DNA from: a virus
Direction: 5' to 3' (one strand)
IMG/VR virus record: IMGVR_UViG_3300042392_000527
Location: 1 to 32,508 of that record
DNA length: 32,508 bases
The position numbers and the translations under genes are program-made. A model generated the notes under the pieces. That model made no database searches. It was given only the letters and a program-made list of their open reading frames with translations, and had not been told where the DNA came from. Every line of letters begins with the position of its first letter. Positions within the stretch are counted from its first letter, which is position 1. Shown here piece by piece: positions 9,070 to 21,787 of the stretch.

Positions 9070-12000
9070 TTATTCCACCTCATAAGATAGTTGTTCTTCC
9101 CAAATTCTACGGAAATCAGGATTGTTAGTAGCTAACTGCTCTCCGTATCCAAACAAATTACCACGCAACTCATTAGCGCGAAGATTATTTTCGGCTTGCA
9201 ACGAAACACCTTCTTCGCTTTGAACAGCATTTTCAGATTGCGTTCTGGCATCAAGATACTTCTTAATGTCCCTAGCAACAGTATTACCCTCAGTACGCTT
9301 GTCTTTGACTAACCGATTTAGGTTGCCAATAAAAGTATCAAACTCTCCTGGATCAAAAGATGCCTTAACAGGAAAGCCCGGATATTTATCGTTAAGTCTT
9401 ACACGAAGATCTTTTAATTCTTGACGTGCCTCCTTGTTTAGAGTGTCACCATATTTTCTGCGCTCTGCAAAATACAACGCAGAACCTAAACGTTTCTGTG
9501 CCTCATTAAGACGGTCAATAGCATCAACTCGATATCGTTTCCCAGTATTTATCTGCTTAGACCAAACCACCATAGACAGATCTCGTGCGCCAACAGGAGC
9601 AAGATAAGGAGCTGTAGATTTAAATGTTGCAACAAGATCTTTATTGTCATCAGCCCAACTACCAAATTCGGCAGATGCCTCTAACCCTTGATATTGAGGA
9701 TTAGTTTTTGTTTTACCAGCCAAATAAATCAAAGCTTCATCACCAAATGTGTTGATAAATTTTCCAGTTGCAGTCTCATAATCTTCTGCTTGCCACTCTG
9801 AATATTGCTTAATCATTTCGTTGACATAGTAATAATCACTTAATTCTGTTTTGAAACGATACTCAGGTTTTGCAGCAGTTGGTCCAATAAATTGAGACAA
9901 TGCACGAAGCAAAGCAACGCCTCGAGACTTAGTTTTTGCGTCATCAACTAGACGAGAAACATCATTTGAATCAGCTAAGTCGTATTCACCACTAGTAGAC
10001 AAAAAAGAAAACACATCAATATATGTTTGGCCGTAAACAGTATTTAACTTGTCAGGACTATCAAAGATGGCACTATACGCTTTGGAAAAAGAACCAGGAA
10101 CTAAGTTAGCGAAAGTTGTATTTCCGTATGGATTAACAACCTTTCTCAATTGGTTAGTATCCGGCACACCAAGTTGATCAAAGATTTTACCTGCCGCAAT
10201 TTGCACCATAGGACCCACACCAGGTACCACAGCGATACCAGCAGAAAGACGTTTAACTGGTGCGGCCAATTCAACACCCGAAACACCAGTAAACATTTTG
10301 GCAATTCTTCCCGACAATGGGAACGTAAACATCATCTCACCAGTTTGGGCATCTTTATAAACCAAACCACGACCATCTTGATCTGGGTCAAACCCTTCTG
10401 CGCCTCGATACAGTTGTTGTGTTTTTCTAATTCGAGAAGGATCTTGAATAATTTCACGCGTGTAACGTCCTGCAACTTCAGCCCATGCCGCACCGAACGG
10501 CGCAATAATTCGCATGGCATCAGCAAAGTTTGACTTTTCAACATTGTTGAAGAACAATTCTTCCATGTCAACTTTGGCTCTTGTACCTGAATATGTTTCC
10601 AGTTGTTCAACAGTTCCTACACCAGTTGCTTTTGAAGCGGCCTCAGTTGTTGATGTTTTGATGTCATTCCAAATATTTCTTCCACCGATATATTTTTCAA
10701 TGGCTTTTGTTGGATTAGTTGCGTACAACTTAGGAAACGTCAATTGAGCAAATGTGTCAATATTGTCAATAAGTTTTTGTGCTTCAACAGGTGACAGGAG
10801 TCTGGCATTTTCTGCGATGTTACGGTAATAACTGATACGGAATGCTGGTGACCGTTCTGCTAGTTGACCGAATGGTTGGACGATGTGTGAAAAAAACCAT
10901 TGAGCAGGAGCTGCCGCCGCTTTTAAGGCTGCACGACCACCCTCGGTTGTACCCTGATCAACTACTGGTTTAACACGGATCTGACCACGCACCCATTCAG
11001 GAACCAATGGAGTACCACCAGTACCCAAAGCTTCGGCATGAGAACCCAGTCGATCTTTAAGGAACTTCTGTGCTAAATCAGAACCCTTTTCTCCAGTCAA
11101 AGCACGATCCAAATCATCAACTTGAATCACTTTGAATGTTCGATTCATTTTTCCTGTTGTAGCACTCTTAACAGCGTCACTTTCAAGCACAAGCCAATGC
11201 TCAAACCTAGGGAAAGCACCACCAACATCATTGCTAATAACTTCTCCAACTTTAGGGCGAACACCACCAATAGTCAACCCACGAATAGTTGCTTCATCCC
11301 ACACTTCTGATGTACCCACAGGAACATGGTTATATCCAACTACAGCGCGCAACTCGTCTAAACCATCAACAGTAAATTGATTAACTTGAAACTTACCAGC
11401 AGTATCAACCCAAGCTGTAATTAACTCATCATCAGTCATTGTTGCAGCATCTTTAATCGGCGCACGTGTCATGGCTCGACCATTGTTTTTGTTCACCACT
11501 AGTGGCCCATCAACTAAATAATCAACAATAGTTTTTCTAATTTCTTTTGACTCACTAGTTCCTTTAGAAATAGCGTCAATTAAAACTTGTTTCTGACGAG
11601 GATCAGGTAAATGCATAATACGTGAATACAAACGCAACAAAGGATCAGCATAAATCTGGCGCGCCGAATCAACGAAAGCACCAAGATAGTTTGGATCTGC
11701 TGTGTTAGCCACAGTTGCTTCACCATTCTTAACCAAACGTGTCAAAGCTTCTGCCGGATCATCAACCAAATAAGCAGCACGATTTTTTACAAACTGAGTA
11801 AATGGCAACAGATCATCTTCGCCCATAAATGTCTCTTTGCCAGCTTCTGTCCACCGTCGACCTTGAGAAACTGTGCCAACACCACGCTTACCAAGAAGCA
11901 TCATCAAATAGTCAATAGGTCTATCGGTACTAATGCCATGCAAAGCCATACGAAGGTTAGCGTCCATTGTGTTACGCATAATGTAACCAAACGACATCAA

Positions 12001-13890
12001 AGCATAAGGTCGCCAAAGATCATTCTGAATATAACTAACAATAGCCGTAGCTTGTAATTGGTCACCATCTGGGGTTAGACGGAAAAAAGGATTGTTTGTT
12101 AAACGGCGAATCTGACGAGGATCAGGCAAAATCTGAACATTGTTTAACATGTCAGAAATAGCAAGTGGACCCCACGTTGTTATCTCGCCAGGTTCAAGAT
12201 TTTTAACAACATCATCTAAATCTGCGCGAGTCATACCTGGTGTAATTTTGTATGGGATTACATCTTTCAGCAAATCGTAAAGTTCAGTATCATCCATGAA
12301 GCCAGTCATGTGGACGATAAAACCATTGTCATCTGTACGGCCAGCAGCATCAATAGCGTTCTTACGAAATGCATCTAAACCAGTACGAAACTGTTCAGCA
12401 ATATCATCAGTAATGGCTCGATCAACCCCTGCATTGTCAAGAGCAACATGCAAAATTCCATCTGACTTGGTTCGAGTATCTCCCATAAACATTCGGAATA
12501 ACTGATCGGCTTCAACACGTGTACCGTTAGCTCCGTAAGCATCAAAAGCTTTAGTCATCAACGCTTTACCTGCACCTGAATACGGATCAATGTCCATAAG
12601 CCTCAACCAGTTACCAATGTTCTGAACTGCTGCAGCTTTTTCATCATCAGTACCATTAACTAACAAAGTGTTTTTTGGTACTTTAGAAAGCCAACGACTA
12701 CTGTTTTTCCATTTGTAAACAGGAATGCGTTGTGTAATAGGAAGTTGATCTGCTGAAGTAGCGAACGGAACCATTCCTTGAACAGTTTCATCATTTAACC
12801 GAACAGCTTGTTCAGCAATAATGCCTCGAACTTCATCGGTTGTTTTAGCATTGGCAAGACGGCGCGCTTGTTCCGGTGTTATTTTCCCACCATAAGCTTC
12901 AAACATTTTGAACTCATCAGTCTCTTCAGCACTTCGCTTAACAACAGTTTGACCCCACCTAGAGTTGTCCAACCAGTTAAAAAATTTACTGTTATCAATT
13001 GCGTGTTGTTCTGCTGTAGACAAAAGACCAGCAGAACCATTAGCCAACTTTGATGCAGCAGCAATTTCGTCTGCTGATTCTAAAGCAGGAATAATTTTCT
13101 TGGCTTTTTGAATTCCAGCAATAATTTCAACTGGCTTATTCGTAGGATCTATATACCAAGATTTTGCAGCGTCGATAGTTCCGGACAAAAATTTATATGG
13201 TTTTGAACCAGGAGCAAAAACCACACTTGCAGCACCACGACCAATTGTGTAGTTTTCACCGTTGATGTCCCACCGAAACTTTTGAACAGCTTCTAACCGT
13301 TTTTGTTCTGCAACACCACCAAGTGTAAACCCTGAACCAGTATCACCGAAGTTTTTAAAGTATTGGGTAATCGGTAAAGTATCCCAAAATTGATCCATAT
13401 CGTCAGATTTGTTTTCAGGATCTGTCAATGCAGAACCCAAACTGTCAACATAAGCAGTACCAGTTTCTGCAACGGTTGAAATAAATTTGATGTTGTCTTT
13501 AACATCTGCCGAAATAATAGGAATATTTCCTAATGTTTTGCTTACTACTTTTCCGACACCACCAGCAATCCAGTTGAGAACATTACTTTTTACCGTTCTT
13601 TTGCCTAAAATTTCATTTGCTTTCTTTTCTTCAGCAGTTAAAGCAGTAGTTGCGCTTTTAACGTACTGATTCAAAGAAGACTTTTTAGCAGCCTCATTAA
13701 CAGTTTCAGGATCTGCACCAGCTTCAGCCAAAGACAAAACAACACCAGTAGGCATATACGGATGCACCCGATAAATATCAGCAATACGTTTAGCAACTAA
13801 CGCGTCATTAGGGTTCTGTGTTTTAGATCTCTTTAAACGAGCCGATACATCTGGCAAAAGTTGAGGGTCGCTGTAATCAATCCAACCCAT
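9070..13890 (-). CDS. Giant virion protein, putative internal/ejection protein (1,606 aa)
   Basis: This is by far the largest gene, about 15% of the window. The product is soluble and helix-rich. A few amphipathic or weakly hydrophobic stretches might insert into a membrane: NVLNWIAGGVGKVV (~104-117), AMRIIAPFGAAWAEVAGRYTREI (~1125-1147) and LSAGIAVVPGVGPMVQIAAG (~1215-1234). I see no complete lysozyme, peptidase, transglycosylase or polymerase signature. Coupling to the preceding gene by ATGA and its place between portal and capsid suggest a virion component. Very large proteins in tail-poor phages are often injected core or trans-envelope channel proteins, so that is my preferred reading. 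A long-tail tape measure is less likely because the hydrophobic repeats and tail-chaperone pair are absent. Confidence 0.8.
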   Translation of the reverse strand: MGWIDYSDPQLLPDVSARLKRSKTQNPNDALVAKRIADIYRVHPYMPTGVVLSLAEAGADPETVNEAAKKSSLNQYVKSATTALTAEEKKANEILGKRTVKSNVLNWIAGGVGKVVSKTLGNIPIISADVKDNIKFISTVAETGTAYVDSLGSALTDPENKSDDMDQFWDTLPITQYFKNFGDTGSGFTLGGVAEQKRLEAVQKFRWDINGENYTIGRGAASVVFAPGSKPYKFLSGTIDAAKSWYIDPTNKPVEIIAGIQKAKKIIPALESADEIAAASKLANGSAGLLSTAEQHAIDNSKFFNWLDNSRWGQTVVKRSAEETDEFKMFEAYGGKITPEQARRLANAKTTDEVRGIIAEQAVRLNDETVQGMVPFATSADQLPITQRIPVYKWKNSSRWLSKVPKNTLLVNGTDDEKAAAVQNIGNWLRLMDIDPYSGAGKALMTKAFDAYGANGTRVEADQLFRMFMGDTRTKSDGILHVALDNAGVDRAITDDIAEQFRTGLDAFRKNAIDAAGRTDDNGFIVHMTGFMDDTELYDLLKDVIPYKITPGMTRADLDDVVKNLEPGEITTWGPLAISDMLNNVQILPDPRQIRRLTNNPFFRLTPDGDQLQATAIVSYIQNDLWRPYALMSFGYIMRNTMDANLRMALHGISTDRPIDYLMMLLGKRGVGTVSQGRRWTEAGKETFMGEDDLLPFTQFVKNRAAYLVDDPAEALTRLVKNGEATVANTADPNYLGAFVDSARQIYADPLLRLYSRIMHLPDPRQKQVLIDAISKGTSESKEIRKTIVDYLVDGPLVVNKNNGRAMTRAPIKDAATMTDDELITAWVDTAGKFQVNQFTVDGLDELRAVVGYNHVPVGTSEVWDEATIRGLTIGGVRPKVGEVISNDVGGAFPRFEHWLVLESDAVKSATTGKMNRTFKVIQVDDLDRALTGEKGSDLAQKFLKDRLGSHAEALGTGGTPLVPEWVRGQIRVKPVVDQGTTEGGRAALKAAAAPAQWFFSHIVQPFGQLAERSPAFRISYYRNIAENARLLSPVEAQKLIDNIDTFAQLTFPKLYATNPTKAIEKYIGGRNIWNDIKTSTTEAASKATGVGTVEQLETYSGTRAKVDMEELFFNNVEKSNFADAMRIIAPFGAAWAEVAGRYTREIIQDPSRIRKTQQLYRGAEGFDPDQDGRGLVYKDAQTGEMMFTFPLSGRIAKMFTGVSGVELAAPVKRLSAGIAVVPGVGPMVQIAAGKIFDQLGVPDTNQLRKVVNPYGNTTFANLVPGSFSKAYSAIFDSPDKLNTVYGQTYIDVFSFLSTSGEYDLADSNDVSRLVDDAKTKSRGVALLRALSQFIGPTAAKPEYRFKTELSDYYYVNEMIKQYSEWQAEDYETATGKFINTFGDEALIYLAGKTKTNPQYQGLEASAEFGSWADDNKDLVATFKSTAPYLAPVGARDLSMVVWSKQINTGKRYRVDAIDRLNEAQKRLGSALYFAERRKYGDTLNKEARQELKDLRVRLNDKYPGFPVKASFDPGEFDTFIGNLNRLVKDKRTEGNTVARDIKKYLDARTQSENAVQSEEGVSLQAENNLRANELRGNLFGYGEQLATNNPDFRRIWEEQLSYEVE

Positions 13891-18050: not shown

Positions 18051-18620
18051 TTACTTCTTCTTGATAACGATTTTTGTTTTATTCGTAGATTTCATTGATT
18101 TAGAAATATCTTTACGCAAATCATTAGGGCGGCCATACAACTCTGCCCTAGCAGTAGGATCCATTTCTGACCGGTATTCACCTTCAGCTTGGCGTTCGAG
18201 TTTTGACATTCTTTTCATTGAATTATCTTTTTGATGTTTGCTTAGCTCACGTTGCAATTTCTTGGTGCCTTCGCTGACAACAACTTTTCTTGCAACTTTA
18301 AAAGTAGAAGCAGCCCTAGATACAGCACCAACTCCTGTGGCCGCTATAGCAGCGTTCATGATCTGCTTCTTATTCAACGGATTAACACCCATAGACGCAC
18401 CCAAAGGCGTACCTGAACCAGCAAACCCAGATGTTGCACCCTTAACTTTAGTTTTAGCCGTAGAAGAAAACCTGTCAGAAGACTTAGATTTAGCTAAACC
18501 AGTCGCCTTCTGCCCACGCTTAGTAACAGCCTCAGTAGGTTTCATACCTTTAGATTTGCTTAAAGCAGCAAGTTGGGCTTTAGTACCCTTGCCATCATTA
18601 GGAGATTTCTTAACAGCCAT
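18051..18620 (-). CDS. Lys/Ser-rich basic protein (189 aa)
   Basis: About a quarter of the residues are Lys or Arg. The N-terminal ~70 residues are low-complexity (KSPNDGKGTKAQLAALSKSKG). A short Ala/Gly-rich, weakly hydrophobic stretch (MNAAIAATGVGAVSRAAS, ~88-105) is followed by a charged helical C-terminus ending KTKIVIKKK. No known domain is recognised. It lies immediately before the terminase and is coupled by TAATG to another basic gene. It could be a virion-packaged DNA-binding protein or a terminase accessory; neither is shown. Confidence 0.75.
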   Translation of the reverse strand: MAVKKSPNDGKGTKAQLAALSKSKGMKPTEAVTKRGQKATGLAKSKSSDRFSSTAKTKVKGATSGFAGSGTPLGASMGVNPLNKKQIMNAAIAATGVGAVSRAASTFKVARKVVVSEGTKKLQRELSKHQKDNSMKRMSKLERQAEGEYRSEMDPTARAELYGRPNDLRKDISKSMKSTNKTKIVIKKK

Positions 18621-18892
18621 TATTTCTTTCCTTTTTTAGATCCCCGAGTAGGAGGCATAGAAGCACGATATGCACGATCGCCGACCTTATCGGCAGCACG
18701 AAAACGACCCTTAGTTTTCATAAACCACCCATCCCCATCCTGTACATAACCCATAGGATTAATCACCTGAGAACGATTAGTTGGTCCATCCAAATACTGA
18801 TCAACAGCTTTCTGTGCTTTACGTTGAGCAACCTTACGCGTAGCAGAACCCGAACCAGAATCCCGACTAGAAGGTTTCTTCTTAGCAACCAC
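18620..18892 (-). CDS. Small Lys-rich protein (90 aa)
   Basis: The start is a GTG overlapping the previous stop (TAGTG). Both ends are basic and low-complexity (VAKKKPSSRDSGSGSATRK and RGSKKGKK). The middle is more ordered (AQKAVDQYLDGPTNRSQVI, GYVQDGDGWFMKTKGRFRAAD). It is the third of four consecutive small basic genes upstream of the terminase. The ordered core suggests a real small domain with charged tails, possibly nucleic-acid binding. No family name is known to me. Confidence 0.75.
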   Translation of the reverse strand: MVAKKKPSSRDSGSGSATRKVAQRKAQKAVDQYLDGPTNRSQVINPMGYVQDGDGWFMKTKGRFRAADKVGDRAYRASMPPTRGSKKGKK

Positions 18893-19011
18893 TATTTCAT
18901 TTTCTTTTTAGGAGCCATCTTCATTTTTTTGCCGGCCTTCTTAGCAGCCATCTTGGCATCTTTCAATCCAGCTGCTGTATAAGGGAACTTCTTTTTTCCA
19001 ACGTTCGGCAT
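18892..19011 (-). CDS. Very small Lys-rich phage protein (39 aa)
   Basis: This gene is easily missed because of its size. It reads MPNVGKKKFPYTAAGLKDAK, continues with Ala/Lys repeats, and ends KKKMK. The MP-V-GKKKFPYT opening is a recurrent small-protein family in tailed phages. The ATG at 19011 overlaps the preceding stop (TAATG) and the TAG overlaps the next GTG, so it fits exactly into the coupled operon. The function is unknown; a basic peptide of this kind might associate with DNA or the capsid interior. Confidence 0.82.
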   Translation of the reverse strand: MPNVGKKKFPYTAAGLKDAKMAAKKAGKKMKMAPKKKMK

Positions 19012-19178
19012 TATTTCTTTCCTTTGCTTCGAGAAGCAGCCATATTATCAACCAAGTTCGGATAAGGGCGACCAGCCTTCTTAGCACGAGCTTTCGCAAC
19101 AACTTTCTGCCCAGGGGTTAACGGCTTCGACTTCTTACTCGGATTAGGTTTATCCCAAACATTCTTTTTCTCAGCCAT
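19011..19178 (-). CDS. Small Lys-rich protein, first gene of the late operon (55 aa)
   Basis: I start it at the ATG at 19178 (MAEKKNVWDKPNPSKKSKPL), because the five residues before it in the frame are hydrophobic and unlikely. It continues with TPGQKVVAKARAKKAGRPYPN and ends RSKGKK. About a third of the residues are Lys or Arg. It is the first gene of the structural operon after the large non-coding region. No strong Shine-Dalgarno is visible. Similar short basic proteins occur next to phage terminases, with unknown function. Confidence 0.78.
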   Translation of the reverse strand: MAEKKNVWDKPNPSKKSKPLTPGQKVVAKARAKKAGRPYPNLVDNMAASRSKGKK

Positions 19179-19227
19179 AAAAAACAATACCACAACCTGC
19201 TACACTCAACCACGCAAGTGAATCAAG

Positions 19228-19483
19228 ACCTCCACGATGGGAATCGTCAAGGCAACCAAGGCCACATAGGGAATTGCACTCTGTTGGTATTTCACACCAG
19301 GGAACTGGGGTAGATGAACCCTGCAATCAAGTCAACAACGAGACATTTGAAGACCCCTATTGCGTCAGAGGTTCAAGCAGCGCGATCAACGACTCAAGAT
19401 CAAACACTTCGGGTGTCGGCTAAAACAAACTGGCTACGGCGACCCTGGTATCACACCGATACCTAAACCGTGGGGGGAAGCCA
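19228..19483 (+). ncRNA. Candidate structured non-coding RNA
   Basis: Several stems can be drawn. CCT-ACGAT pairs with ATCGT-AGG around a GGGA tetraloop (19,229-19,252). CCAG-GGAA-CTGG (19,297-19,308) lies inside an ATTG/CAAT closing stem. TTTGAA pairs with TTCAAG (19,346-19,377). ACAC pairs with GTGT around TTCGG (19,404-19,416). A three-part nested element has TGGCT/AGCCA (19,431-19,483), ACGG/CCGT and GGTATC/GATACC. The two GNRA loops exist only on the plus strand, so the RNA may run opposite to all genes. It could instead be a leader of the late operon. No known RNA family was identified, and no promoter is obvious. Confidence 0.35.
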
Positions 19484-19873
19484 ACACCAAACCCACGATC
19501 AACAAGACACCACTAACGCCCCTCGCTACGCATCGGGTTGTTCACACAAAACCACCCAGCCAACCCACACAAAAAACCAAACCAACCGATGCATAAAAGA
19601 GTGACACCGTACAAACACAGTAATGTATATACCCCCCGAGGGGGACGTGGGGCAGACCCCCGGTTGTGTATGGGCCGTGAGCGCGAACGTAGGGAGTGCG
19701 ATACGGAACTGGTGTGCGCCGAACGAAGTGAGGTTCGAGCACAGCAGAAATGTGGGGTATGTGTTTGGTAAGTGGGGGTGTGGTCGGCATGTGCAGCTTG
19801 AATGCCATCCACATTCGCAAAGCCTGCGTGTGTGATGGTTTACGCCTATACAGTCATGGTGTGTGCAATGTGC

Positions 19874-20018
19874 GAGCGTTGCGAGCTGGTATGCCCGAGC
19901 GTGAGCGAGGTGGTGTGGTTTTGTGGTGTGAGCGTAGCGAGCTCGTTTGGGTCAGCGTAGCGAGCCTTTGCTCTTGCCGAACGTAGTGAGGTGAGAGGTC
20001 GAGATCGAGCGTAGCGAT
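19874..20018 (+). repeat. Array of GAGCGTAGCGAG-type repeats (iteron-like)
   Basis: Six copies of a 12-nt element lie in one orientation, starting at 19,874, 19,897, 19,930, 19,953, 19,979 and 20,007. The steps are 23, 33, 23, 26 and 28 nt. Sequences vary around GAGCGTAGCGAG (for example GAGCGTTGCGAG, CAGCGTAGCGAG, GAACGTAGTGAG). Two more diverged copies lie at 19,685 and 19,721, and one inverted copy is near 19,522. The unit is close to a mirror repeat (GAGCG then GCGAG). The array ends next to an AT-rich tract, an arrangement seen at iteron-type replication origins. Confidence 0.6.
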
Positions 20019-20026
20019 GATCGGAT

Positions 20027-20051
20027 GCGCCGAAGGCGCGAAAATTTTTTT
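20027..20051 (+). terminator. Terminator-like hairpin on the plus strand
   Basis: GCGCC-GAA-GGCGC (20,027-20,039) is followed after five bases by seven T residues on the plus strand. No gene is read in that direction, so if it works it would end a non-coding plus-strand transcript. The gap between stem and T-tract makes it less than ideal. The A/T run also belongs to the AT-rich stretch beside the repeat array. Confidence 0.35.
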
Positions 20052-20440: not shown

Positions 20441-20670
20441 TGGCAGTCCCTCGCATAATCTCGGCATCGTGTGCATCGTCCGTCTTCGGTCATTCCTGGG
20501 GCGCAGTTTGAGCACCAGTCGGCCGCCATGCCGTTAATGATTGGAACGTTGAGCTGTTCGCAATAGTCGCAGGTTGTGAAGAGTTCTCCACACTCACAGA
20601 AGCCACAAGACGGCTCATCGCATTCTGGGCATATCGTGCAATTCGACTCGGCGCATCTTGTGCAGTTCAT
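20434..20670 (-). CDS. Extremely Cys-rich multi-zinc-ribbon protein (78 aa)
   Basis: Sixteen of 78 residues are cysteine, mostly in CxxC pairs (CTRC, CTIC, CDYC, CSNC, CTRC), with CGFCEC and a terminal CQC. This could hold about four zinc ions as tandem ribbons or knuckles. Such modules mediate contacts with nucleic acids or proteins; no enzyme signature is present. The ATG at 20,670 overlaps the GP88 stop (ATGA), which fixes the start and discards an upstream extension. Iron-sulfur binding is an alternative. Confidence 0.82.
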   Translation of the reverse strand: MNCTRCAESNCTICPECDEPSCGFCECGELFTTCDYCEQLNVPIINGMAADWCSNCAPGMTEDGRCTRCRDYARDCQC

Positions 20671-21539
20671 TTGGTTGCTCCTTTGTTGAGTTTGGATGCT
20701 TGTTGAATCATGGGATGCCATGGTTTCATTGTGTGTTTACGGCGAAGGATGACCACCGAGCCGACTGGGTCGGCTGTTCGGTCGTCGGTTTGGTCGCCAT
20801 CTACGGTCGGCATGTTTCCCCACGTTGAAGGAATCGGCCGCCACCCTTCTTTAGTTTTTCCGGAACGGATAGAAACAACTACGGCAAGATTTCTGCGCGC
20901 TTGCTTTGCGTTTTCGATTTCCTGTGCTGTTGTCTTTTCGCTGATCGAGTACGTTAGGCGATAATTTCCTGGGAGCGTGTTTGCAGGGCGTGAACGTGTG
21001 GTGTGTTTTGTGTAGTCGTAGTACTCGATGGAATAGGTGAACTCCATGAACGATTTGAATACGCGTTCCCATCGGATATCGGAATAAGTGTTTAGACGGA
21101 CAAGAGACTCGCCATCTGTGTACTCGTGGATAATTGTTAACTCTTCCATGAGTAGTAGGAGGAACTCATACGGATGATTCATCATAAAGTTAGTTTTAGC
21201 GAGTCGACTATTCATGGTTGAACTAAAGGAGCCATTGCCCGAGAACGCGACACACGTTTCAGCGCAAGAATCCGAGAACGCGCAAACATTGCCAAGGCCG
21301 GAGAACGTTGCAGGTAATAACGCGAGTCCGTAGGTTGGGATGCTGTTTTTTTCTAGTTTGCTTATGCTTTGCGTGAGTAGTTTGCCTGGGCTTTTTATTC
21401 CGTAACTAGCACGTACCTGACGATAGACAACGCGCGCGCGTTCTGTGTCTTCGATGTATTCGTTACGTGTCTGTAGTTGGTTCTCGTATTTCAAAAAAGC
21501 AGCGCGCAGGCTTTTCTCGATTTGGTTTGGTGTTTTCAT
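20667..21539 (-). CDS. GP88-family protein (290 aa)
   Basis: The sequence matches the actinobacteriophage GP88 family: SKLEKNSIPTYGLALLPA (~48-65), the Cys-rich core NVCAFSDSCAETCVAFSGNG, an RLNTYSDIRWE block, EYYDYTKH, and NYRLTYSISEKT. Family members are found in mycobacteriophages such as L5. I know of no established biochemical function; the conserved Cys cluster suggests metal or Fe-S binding. I start at the ATG at 21,539, which forms an ATGA overlap with the upstream gene; a longer frame without conserved residues was rejected. Confidence 0.88.
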   Translation of the reverse strand: MKTPNQIEKSLRAAFLKYENQLQTRNEYIEDTERARVVYRQVRASYGIKSPGKLLTQSISKLEKNSIPTYGLALLPATFSGLGNVCAFSDSCAETCVAFSGNGSFSSTMNSRLAKTNFMMNHPYEFLLLLMEELTIIHEYTDGESLVRLNTYSDIRWERVFKSFMEFTYSIEYYDYTKHTTRSRPANTLPGNYRLTYSISEKTTAQEIENAKQARRNLAVVVSIRSGKTKEGWRPIPSTWGNMPTVDGDQTDDRTADPVGSVVILRRKHTMKPWHPMIQQASKLNKGATK

Positions 21540-21787
21540 TTTGTTTCTACTTTCATTTGTTGGATTACTTCTGCTAGTGCGTCTTCGACGGTGGTGCATG
21601 TTGTGACGTGACTCCAATACGACTGCCAGTTTGTTAGTCCGTCGATGGTTTGCCAATAGCGAGCCCATGCGAACTCGTACGCGTGGCGTTCGTTGGTAAA
21701 CGTGATTTTGAGGAATCGCGCATACTCTATTTCTTTAGGGCCGGTTGGGTCGCCGACTCCTTCGAGGATTTGGTAGGTGCTTTTCAT
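21536..21787 (-). CDS. Hypothetical protein (83 aa)
   Basis: The product starts MKSTYQILEGVGDPTGPKEI and contains RFLKITFTNERHAYEFAWARYWQT, then a helix with an acidic C-terminal half (VEDALAEVIQQMKVETK). It looks like a small alpha/beta domain. The ATG at 21,787 has a GAAAGCGAG purine stretch in front; the extra 13 residues available upstream overlap the previous gene and lack such a site. It is coupled to GP88 by ATGA. No function is recognised. Confidence 0.75.
   Translation of the reverse strand: MKSTYQILEGVGDPTGPKEIEYARFLKITFTNERHAYEFAWARYWQTIDGLTNWQSYWSHVTTCTTVEDALAEVIQQMKVETK

Follow-up and report, generated by a model that had tools for sequence, protein, structure and literature searches.

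The locus analysed here raises a simple question: what lies in a long gap between two gene blocks of a phage all of whose credible genes point the same way? The window (the whole stretch of 32,508 bases analysed, a phage contig) carries every credible gene on its minus strand. The tail, capsid, portal and terminase genes are on the left, and the early genes, which encode SSB, a single-strand annealing protein, a RecE-like exonuclease, a DNA methyltransferase and WhiB, are on the right; among the early-gene products we recognise RecT, exonucleases, SSB, endonuclease VII and the methyltransferase. Between the terminase side and the early genes is an intergenic stretch of about 940 bases, and it is this stretch that holds the RNA described below. 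Two or three small lysine-rich proteins are encoded between the terminase and the RNA (18051–19193, for example 18620–18892 and 18051–18620) and are possible nucleic-acid-binding partners. Elsewhere in the window, a 1606-amino-acid protein beside the portal region (9070–13890) has no PHROG or Pfam match, nor does a 1523-amino-acid protein at a similar position in locus L429 have a PHROG match, and the genes at the early module's late end include one, at 20667–21668, for an uncharacterised GP88-family protein (PF17338).

We are nearly certain that the intergenic stretch contains a gene for a structured noncoding RNA of about 280 nt, encoded on the plus strand and characteristic of a clade of WhiB-encoding actinophages, whose promoter adjoins the first late gene and which reads toward the 3' end of the early operon. 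In the window it is the long variant of what we call type A and occupies roughly 19213–19489 (+), as judged from a covariance-model match and from covariation, with the 5' end placed from a -10 element (below). The model, R1, was built from 37 members with the window left out; it matches the window at 19256–19489 (+) with 91.5 bits (E 4.6e-26), and it also matches new members outside its own building set. Folding of the single sequence 19179–19483 was not significant on either strand (z -0.70 for plus and +1.01 for minus), and an 882-nt stretch reaching 20060 was the only one that folded better than its shuffles (z -3.25).

The comparative evidence is much stronger. In the type A alignment (A1), standard pairing holds in 95% of cells and 24 of 32 pairs have changed on both sides, giving a covariation score of 0.507 against 0.178 for shuffled alignments, and shifting the pairing partner by one to three bases destroyed the signal. 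The window with 23 relatives of its long variant (alignment A4) has compensatory changes in 27 of 47 pairs (score 0.441, control 0.169). The corresponding values are 7 of 22 pairs for type C (0.329 against 0.147) and 8 of 22 for type D (0.316 against 0.101). The intermediates expected of pair replacement also identify the strand: G-U outnumbers A-C by 40 to 15 in A1 and by 28 to 0 in A2, which makes the plus strand the RNA strand. An earlier note, made from the letters of the window, had proposed a structured noncoding RNA read from the plus strand, antisense to all of the genes, and had named covariation among homologues as its check; compensatory pairs far above controls in the relatives, the match to a model built without the window, the G-U/A-C asymmetry and a sense promoter-like sequence in most relatives all bear the proposal out.

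With the window terminase as query we collected 80 related loci from IMG/VR. A blastn comparison of the intergenic stretch with these loci found patchy conservation, in every case opposite to the terminase, and pattern scans with GGTGTCGGCTAAAA...ACGGC yielded many further members. The RNA is present upstream of the terminase in all 74 relatives that have enough upstream sequence (45 with type A or B and 29 with type D or a D-like form); the remaining six loci lack upstream sequence. A first count had left about 32 terminase relatives as RNA-free, a reading we discarded because 29 of them carry type D or D-like RNAs and the rest lack upstream sequence. The RNAs fall into several architectures. 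The RNA of the window belongs to type A. Type B has the same 3' domain with a different 5' domain. Type C, which some genomes carry as a second copy, is a shorter relative and shares with the others the layout of P1, GNRA hairpin and third stem as well as the terminal G-run; its model, R2, also detects type A. When whole records were searched with R1, nine of 31 had a second RNA, which shares the strand of the first and lies 10.8–11.9 kb from it. The pair thus brackets the early module, with type C at the distal end of the early genes about 11 kb from A/B. Type D came to light through G021 and G023, two genomes with no model match that nevertheless have the downstream motif GGCAGACCCCYAGTTG; upstream of this motif is a conserved RNA. 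It is very strongly conserved (GTGGCCTGAAAAGGGGACCG ... ACTTGGGGGG) and has compensatory pairs of its own. One member of the D set, L073, is mixed, combining a hairpin like that of B with a 3' end like that of C.

The window RNA begins with a hairpin, CCT-ACGAT-GGGA-ATCGT-AGG, with a GNRA-type loop (19229–19252; in A4, 87% of cells paired and 6 of 8 pairs compensatory). It is followed at 19262–19287 by a stem, CCA-ATAG / CTGT-TGG, whose loop contains TTGCA; its pairing in the window was read by hand and stands outside the counts, and its equivalents in A1 are 100% paired with 5 of 7 pairs compensatory, most relatives having the form NNN-GTA-NNNN / NNNN-CGG-NNN. The next hairpin, CCAG-GGAA-CTGG (19297–19308), again has a GNRA-type loop, is 100% paired in A4 with 2 of 4 pairs compensatory, and precedes a conserved GGTAGA; forms of it are common to types A, B, C and D. 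Two conserved helices that the earlier note missed come next: a nested stem at 19315–19375 (TGAACC/GGTTCA, GCAAT/ATTGC and GTC/GAC, with 4/6, 2/5 and 3/3 pairs compensatory in A4) and a hairpin at 19384–19401 (GATC/GATC around a conserved AACG loop, 4/4 pairs compensatory and 92% paired).

The 3' domain (19412–19483), GGTGTCGGCTAAAA...TGGCTACGG...GGTATC/GATACC...CCGTGGGGGGAAGCCA, is common to types A and B. Within it, ACGG/CCGT (19436–19441/19468–19471) is 98% paired in A4, with one pair changed from G-C to C-G, and GGTATC/GATACC (19447–19463) is 89% paired with 4 of 6 pairs compensatory. The outer TGGCT/AGCCA helix (19431–19435/19479–19483) is 94% paired in A1 with 3 of 3 pairs compensatory, and is poorly aligned in A4 (59%). 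A GGT/ACC interaction in this domain, both sides of which are invariant, would form a pseudoknot. The run GGGGGG at 19472–19477 is unpaired in the model, and each of the types A, B, C and D ends in such a G-run (alignments A1–A4). Five of the six elements drawn in the earlier note, the GGGA and GGAA hairpins among them, thus hold; the sixth, a TTCGG-loop hairpin at 19405–19415, fails, since it is not conserved (42% paired in A4, none compensatory).

The RNA appears to have its own promoter. Many relatives have the promoter-like sequence TTGCAA-N17-TGNTANNNT ahead of it, and the sense promoter score exceeds the antisense score in 103 of 146 A/B members (it is lower in 22) and in 25 of 31 D members (lower in 3); type C has no sense excess (12 against 14). 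In the window the putative extended -10 element is TGCTACACT at 19198–19206 (+), with a weak -35. A strict sigma-70 scan of the window returned no site, so this element is assigned by comparison with the relatives, and transcription would probably start near 19213. A conserved hairpin with a AAGGAAGGGAARAACCAAA loop is found ahead of the type C promoter region (L307, L248 and L254).

A plus-strand terminator-like hairpin, TGCGCCGAAGGCGCG (20026–20040) followed by AAAATTTTTT (to 20050), is indeed present as the earlier note had it, and may end a longer plus-strand transcript, but the scan gave two such sites with 1.4 expected by chance, so the transcript of about 800 nt proposed there is not supported; the conserved part is about 280 nt. 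Repeats of the GAGCGNAGCGAGC type precede this hairpin. Between the RNA and the hairpin (19870–20020) are several copies of palindrome-like repeats, GAGCGTAGCGAGC / CGAACGTAGTGAG, and repeats similar to the window's (CGCCCTCGCTACGCTCGGTTG) come after the RNA in relatives.

Does the RNA belong to a known family? The earlier note could match it to no known consensus, and a search of the window with Rfam 15 at gathering scores (GOLLD, ROOL, HEARO and tmRNA included) was likewise empty. At E values up to 10 the RNA region gave only short, terminator-type chance matches, and relatives with types A/C (L248, L307), B (L111, L079) and D (L067, L042) gave no credible match. Nothing real was found in cultured phages by blastn with types A, B, C and D and the window. 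In bacterial genomes, 80 stretches among the matches listed for a loose pattern were checked with R1 and none was a real member, which does not amount to absence from bacteria. In comparison with named families the RNA is therefore a class absent from Rfam 15; it may correspond to an unnamed prediction in one of the large catalogues of phage candidate RNAs. Of the two possibilities raised in the earlier note, a GOLLD relative or a new class, the second alone fits and kinship with GOLLD is not supported, as no credible Rfam match appeared in the window, the region or the scanned A–D relatives. Like GOLLD, ROOL and OLE, the RNA is extensively structured and of unknown function; GOLLD and ROOL are also phage-encoded, and GOLLD has a conserved 3' region and a variable 5' region (PMC12286853), as is the case here. 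However, those RNAs are 600–800 nt long and the present ones about 130–300 nt, GOLLD and ROOL lie near tRNA genes and the window has no tRNA or tmRNA (ARAGORN), and the present RNA has a fixed site opposite the terminase module and no sequence or covariance-model match to any of the three.

The phages that carry these RNAs are uncultured freshwater phages of actinobacteria; their hosts are very probably Actinobacteria because WhiB is encoded by 15 of 15 genomes tested and by one of 14 control genomes, that of an actinobacterium. The same 15 genomes had no match to family A DNA polymerase (PF00476) or DnaB-type helicase (PF03796), the two replication families searched, and many of the early proteins have no match.

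Our best guess at function, a tentative one drawn by analogy, is that the RNA is an origin RNA that primes replication as the ColE1 RNA II does. Host RNA polymerase would transcribe the RNA, whose fold and G-run would keep its 3' part annealed to the C-rich template strand in an R-loop; the host replisome could extend the RNA or exploit the opening, so that the rightward leading strand starts there; this would be a ColE1 RNA II-like route for a replicon without its own initiator. In ColE1 a noncoding RNA opens the origin without a replicon-encoded initiator (PMC5043065), and one account describes R-loop primers at T4 origins (PMC3016281). The present RNA resembles ColE1 RNA II in being a folded noncoding transcript with a putative host-type promoter in a replicon without an evident initiator, and would on this proposal likewise open the origin (PMC5043065), but we detect no sequence relation and identify no equivalent of the antisense RNA I, and unlike that of RNA II its link to replication consists of GC skew and DnaA-like boxes.

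In eight genomes with a single type A RNA (G000, G002, G003, G004, G006, G012, G027 and G028) the cumulative GC skew reaches its minimum no more than about 180 nt from the RNA 3' end, and past the RNA the plus-strand skew is positive over several kb, despite the minus-strand orientation of the credible window genes there. The argument from skew would be weaker in any single-RNA genome with genes on the RNA strand, and some may have them. Beside the G004 RNA, for example, there is a run of minus-strand ORFs (L429:53–3166), which is the strand of that RNA, and one of them matches phrog_18663 (unknown function). The skew signal is weak in G001 and G015, type D genomes have no clear switch, and two-RNA genomes (G007, G009, G030, G014, G011 and G016) have no switch at A/B and a weak one at most after C. 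A DnaA-box-like sequence, TTGTTCACA, lies at 19538–19546 (+), 62 nt beyond the conserved GTGGGG, and among 125 A/B members the bin 50–100 nt past the RNA holds 41 DnaA-like boxes with at most one mismatch, where 2.0 are expected; perfect TTATCCACA occurs in L010, L015 and L017. These boxes overlap a conserved repeat, CGCCCTCGCTACGTTCGGTTGTCCAC, in the same bin, and so their enrichment is not independent evidence. Measured against a ColE1-type primer, then, the fold is established by covariation, the promoter comes from relatives with an empty strict scan of the window, and the origin-like skew is confined to single-type-A genomes. A wider proposal is possible but more doubtful: these RNAs would form a new phage RNA superclass, comprising four or more architectures (A, B, C and D among them) and present at one locus in every clade member, and would serve as an RNA-based replication origin in dsDNA freshwater actinophages without a recognisable polymerase and replicative helicase.

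The main rival to the origin model, which we consider improbable, is antisense control of the late operon by the RNA, whose early transcription would block or destabilise late transcripts. Under this reading the minus-strand element CAACYRGGGGTCTGCC-N18-TAATACCCGTCC past the RNA 3' end would be the late promoter, and the late mRNA leader would include the full complement of the RNA. The motif GGCAGACCCCCGGTTG (19651–19666 in the window, beyond the RNA 3' end) has one site per genome where it is found, and on the minus strand, with the TATATA/TAATAC that follows, it is a possible late promoter. The element's single occurrence, where found, just beyond the RNA 3' end in genomes with A, B or D, its direction toward the late genes and the position of the RNA at the early/late boundary all agree with such a role; however, a simple antisense RNA needs less fold and less near-invariant sequence, and type C is at the other boundary, where a minus-strand gene abuts or overlaps its 3' end and thus leaves little room for a late leader. 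We also considered the minus-strand motif as a promoter for a T7-type RNA polymerase and rejected this, as each genome in which the motif is found has a single copy and the proteins searched include no phage RNA polymerase. Regulation of the late genes and an origin function could both hold.

Other roles seem to us unlikely in varying degree. A trans-acting RNA that takes over the host by binding its RNA polymerase or ribosome, or one that self-assembles as GOLLD and ROOL do (these form RNA cages of unknown function; PMC12286853), is an unlikely reading: the variety of architectures, the large conserved segments left unpaired and the GNRA loops suggest tertiary contacts, but the RNA is far smaller than GOLLD and ROOL, the window lacks tRNA genes, and a constant site at one operon boundary would better suit an element that acts in cis. 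Still less likely is a packaging RNA that works with the terminase or portal as phi29 pRNA does. Like pRNA, it is a noncoding RNA of a phage and, in the A, B and D loci, has packaging genes nearby, and it adjoins the terminase module in all 74 loci (with the small lysine-rich proteins between them in the window), but it is larger, matches no Rfam family, any pRNA family covered by the search included, and accompanies a different kind of terminase, the standard large subunit (phrog_38); moreover its paralogue C is about 11 kb from the packaging genes, at the far end of the early module. Kissing loops of the pRNA kind through the self-complementary TTGCAA of many type A members are not conserved, since other members have TTCGCA or GTCGCA, and contig ends near the RNA were left uncounted as packaging ends because assembly breaks at conserved sequence explain them equally well. 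Least probable, we think, is a ribozyme or processing element, or a cis-acting RNA that modifies RNA polymerase (put- or EAR-like processive antitermination) on a long plus-strand transcript; the near-invariant GTGGCCTGAAAAGGGGACCG and ACTTGGGGGG of type D do look like an active core, but the RNA is unlike any Rfam ribozyme and no plus-strand gene is evident downstream in the window for antitermination to serve.

Whatever its role, the RNA is likely to be important to these phages, since it has been kept by every examinable phage of the terminase clade in compact genomes of about 38–40 kb. With the four alignments it can be put to the test, also in isolated phages of Nanopelagicales (PMC10202952) should any of these have it. 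An origin role would account for replication in phages that have no evident polymerase, helicase or initiator, whereas a role as late-gene switch or packaging RNA would add a new case of RNA running a phage life cycle.
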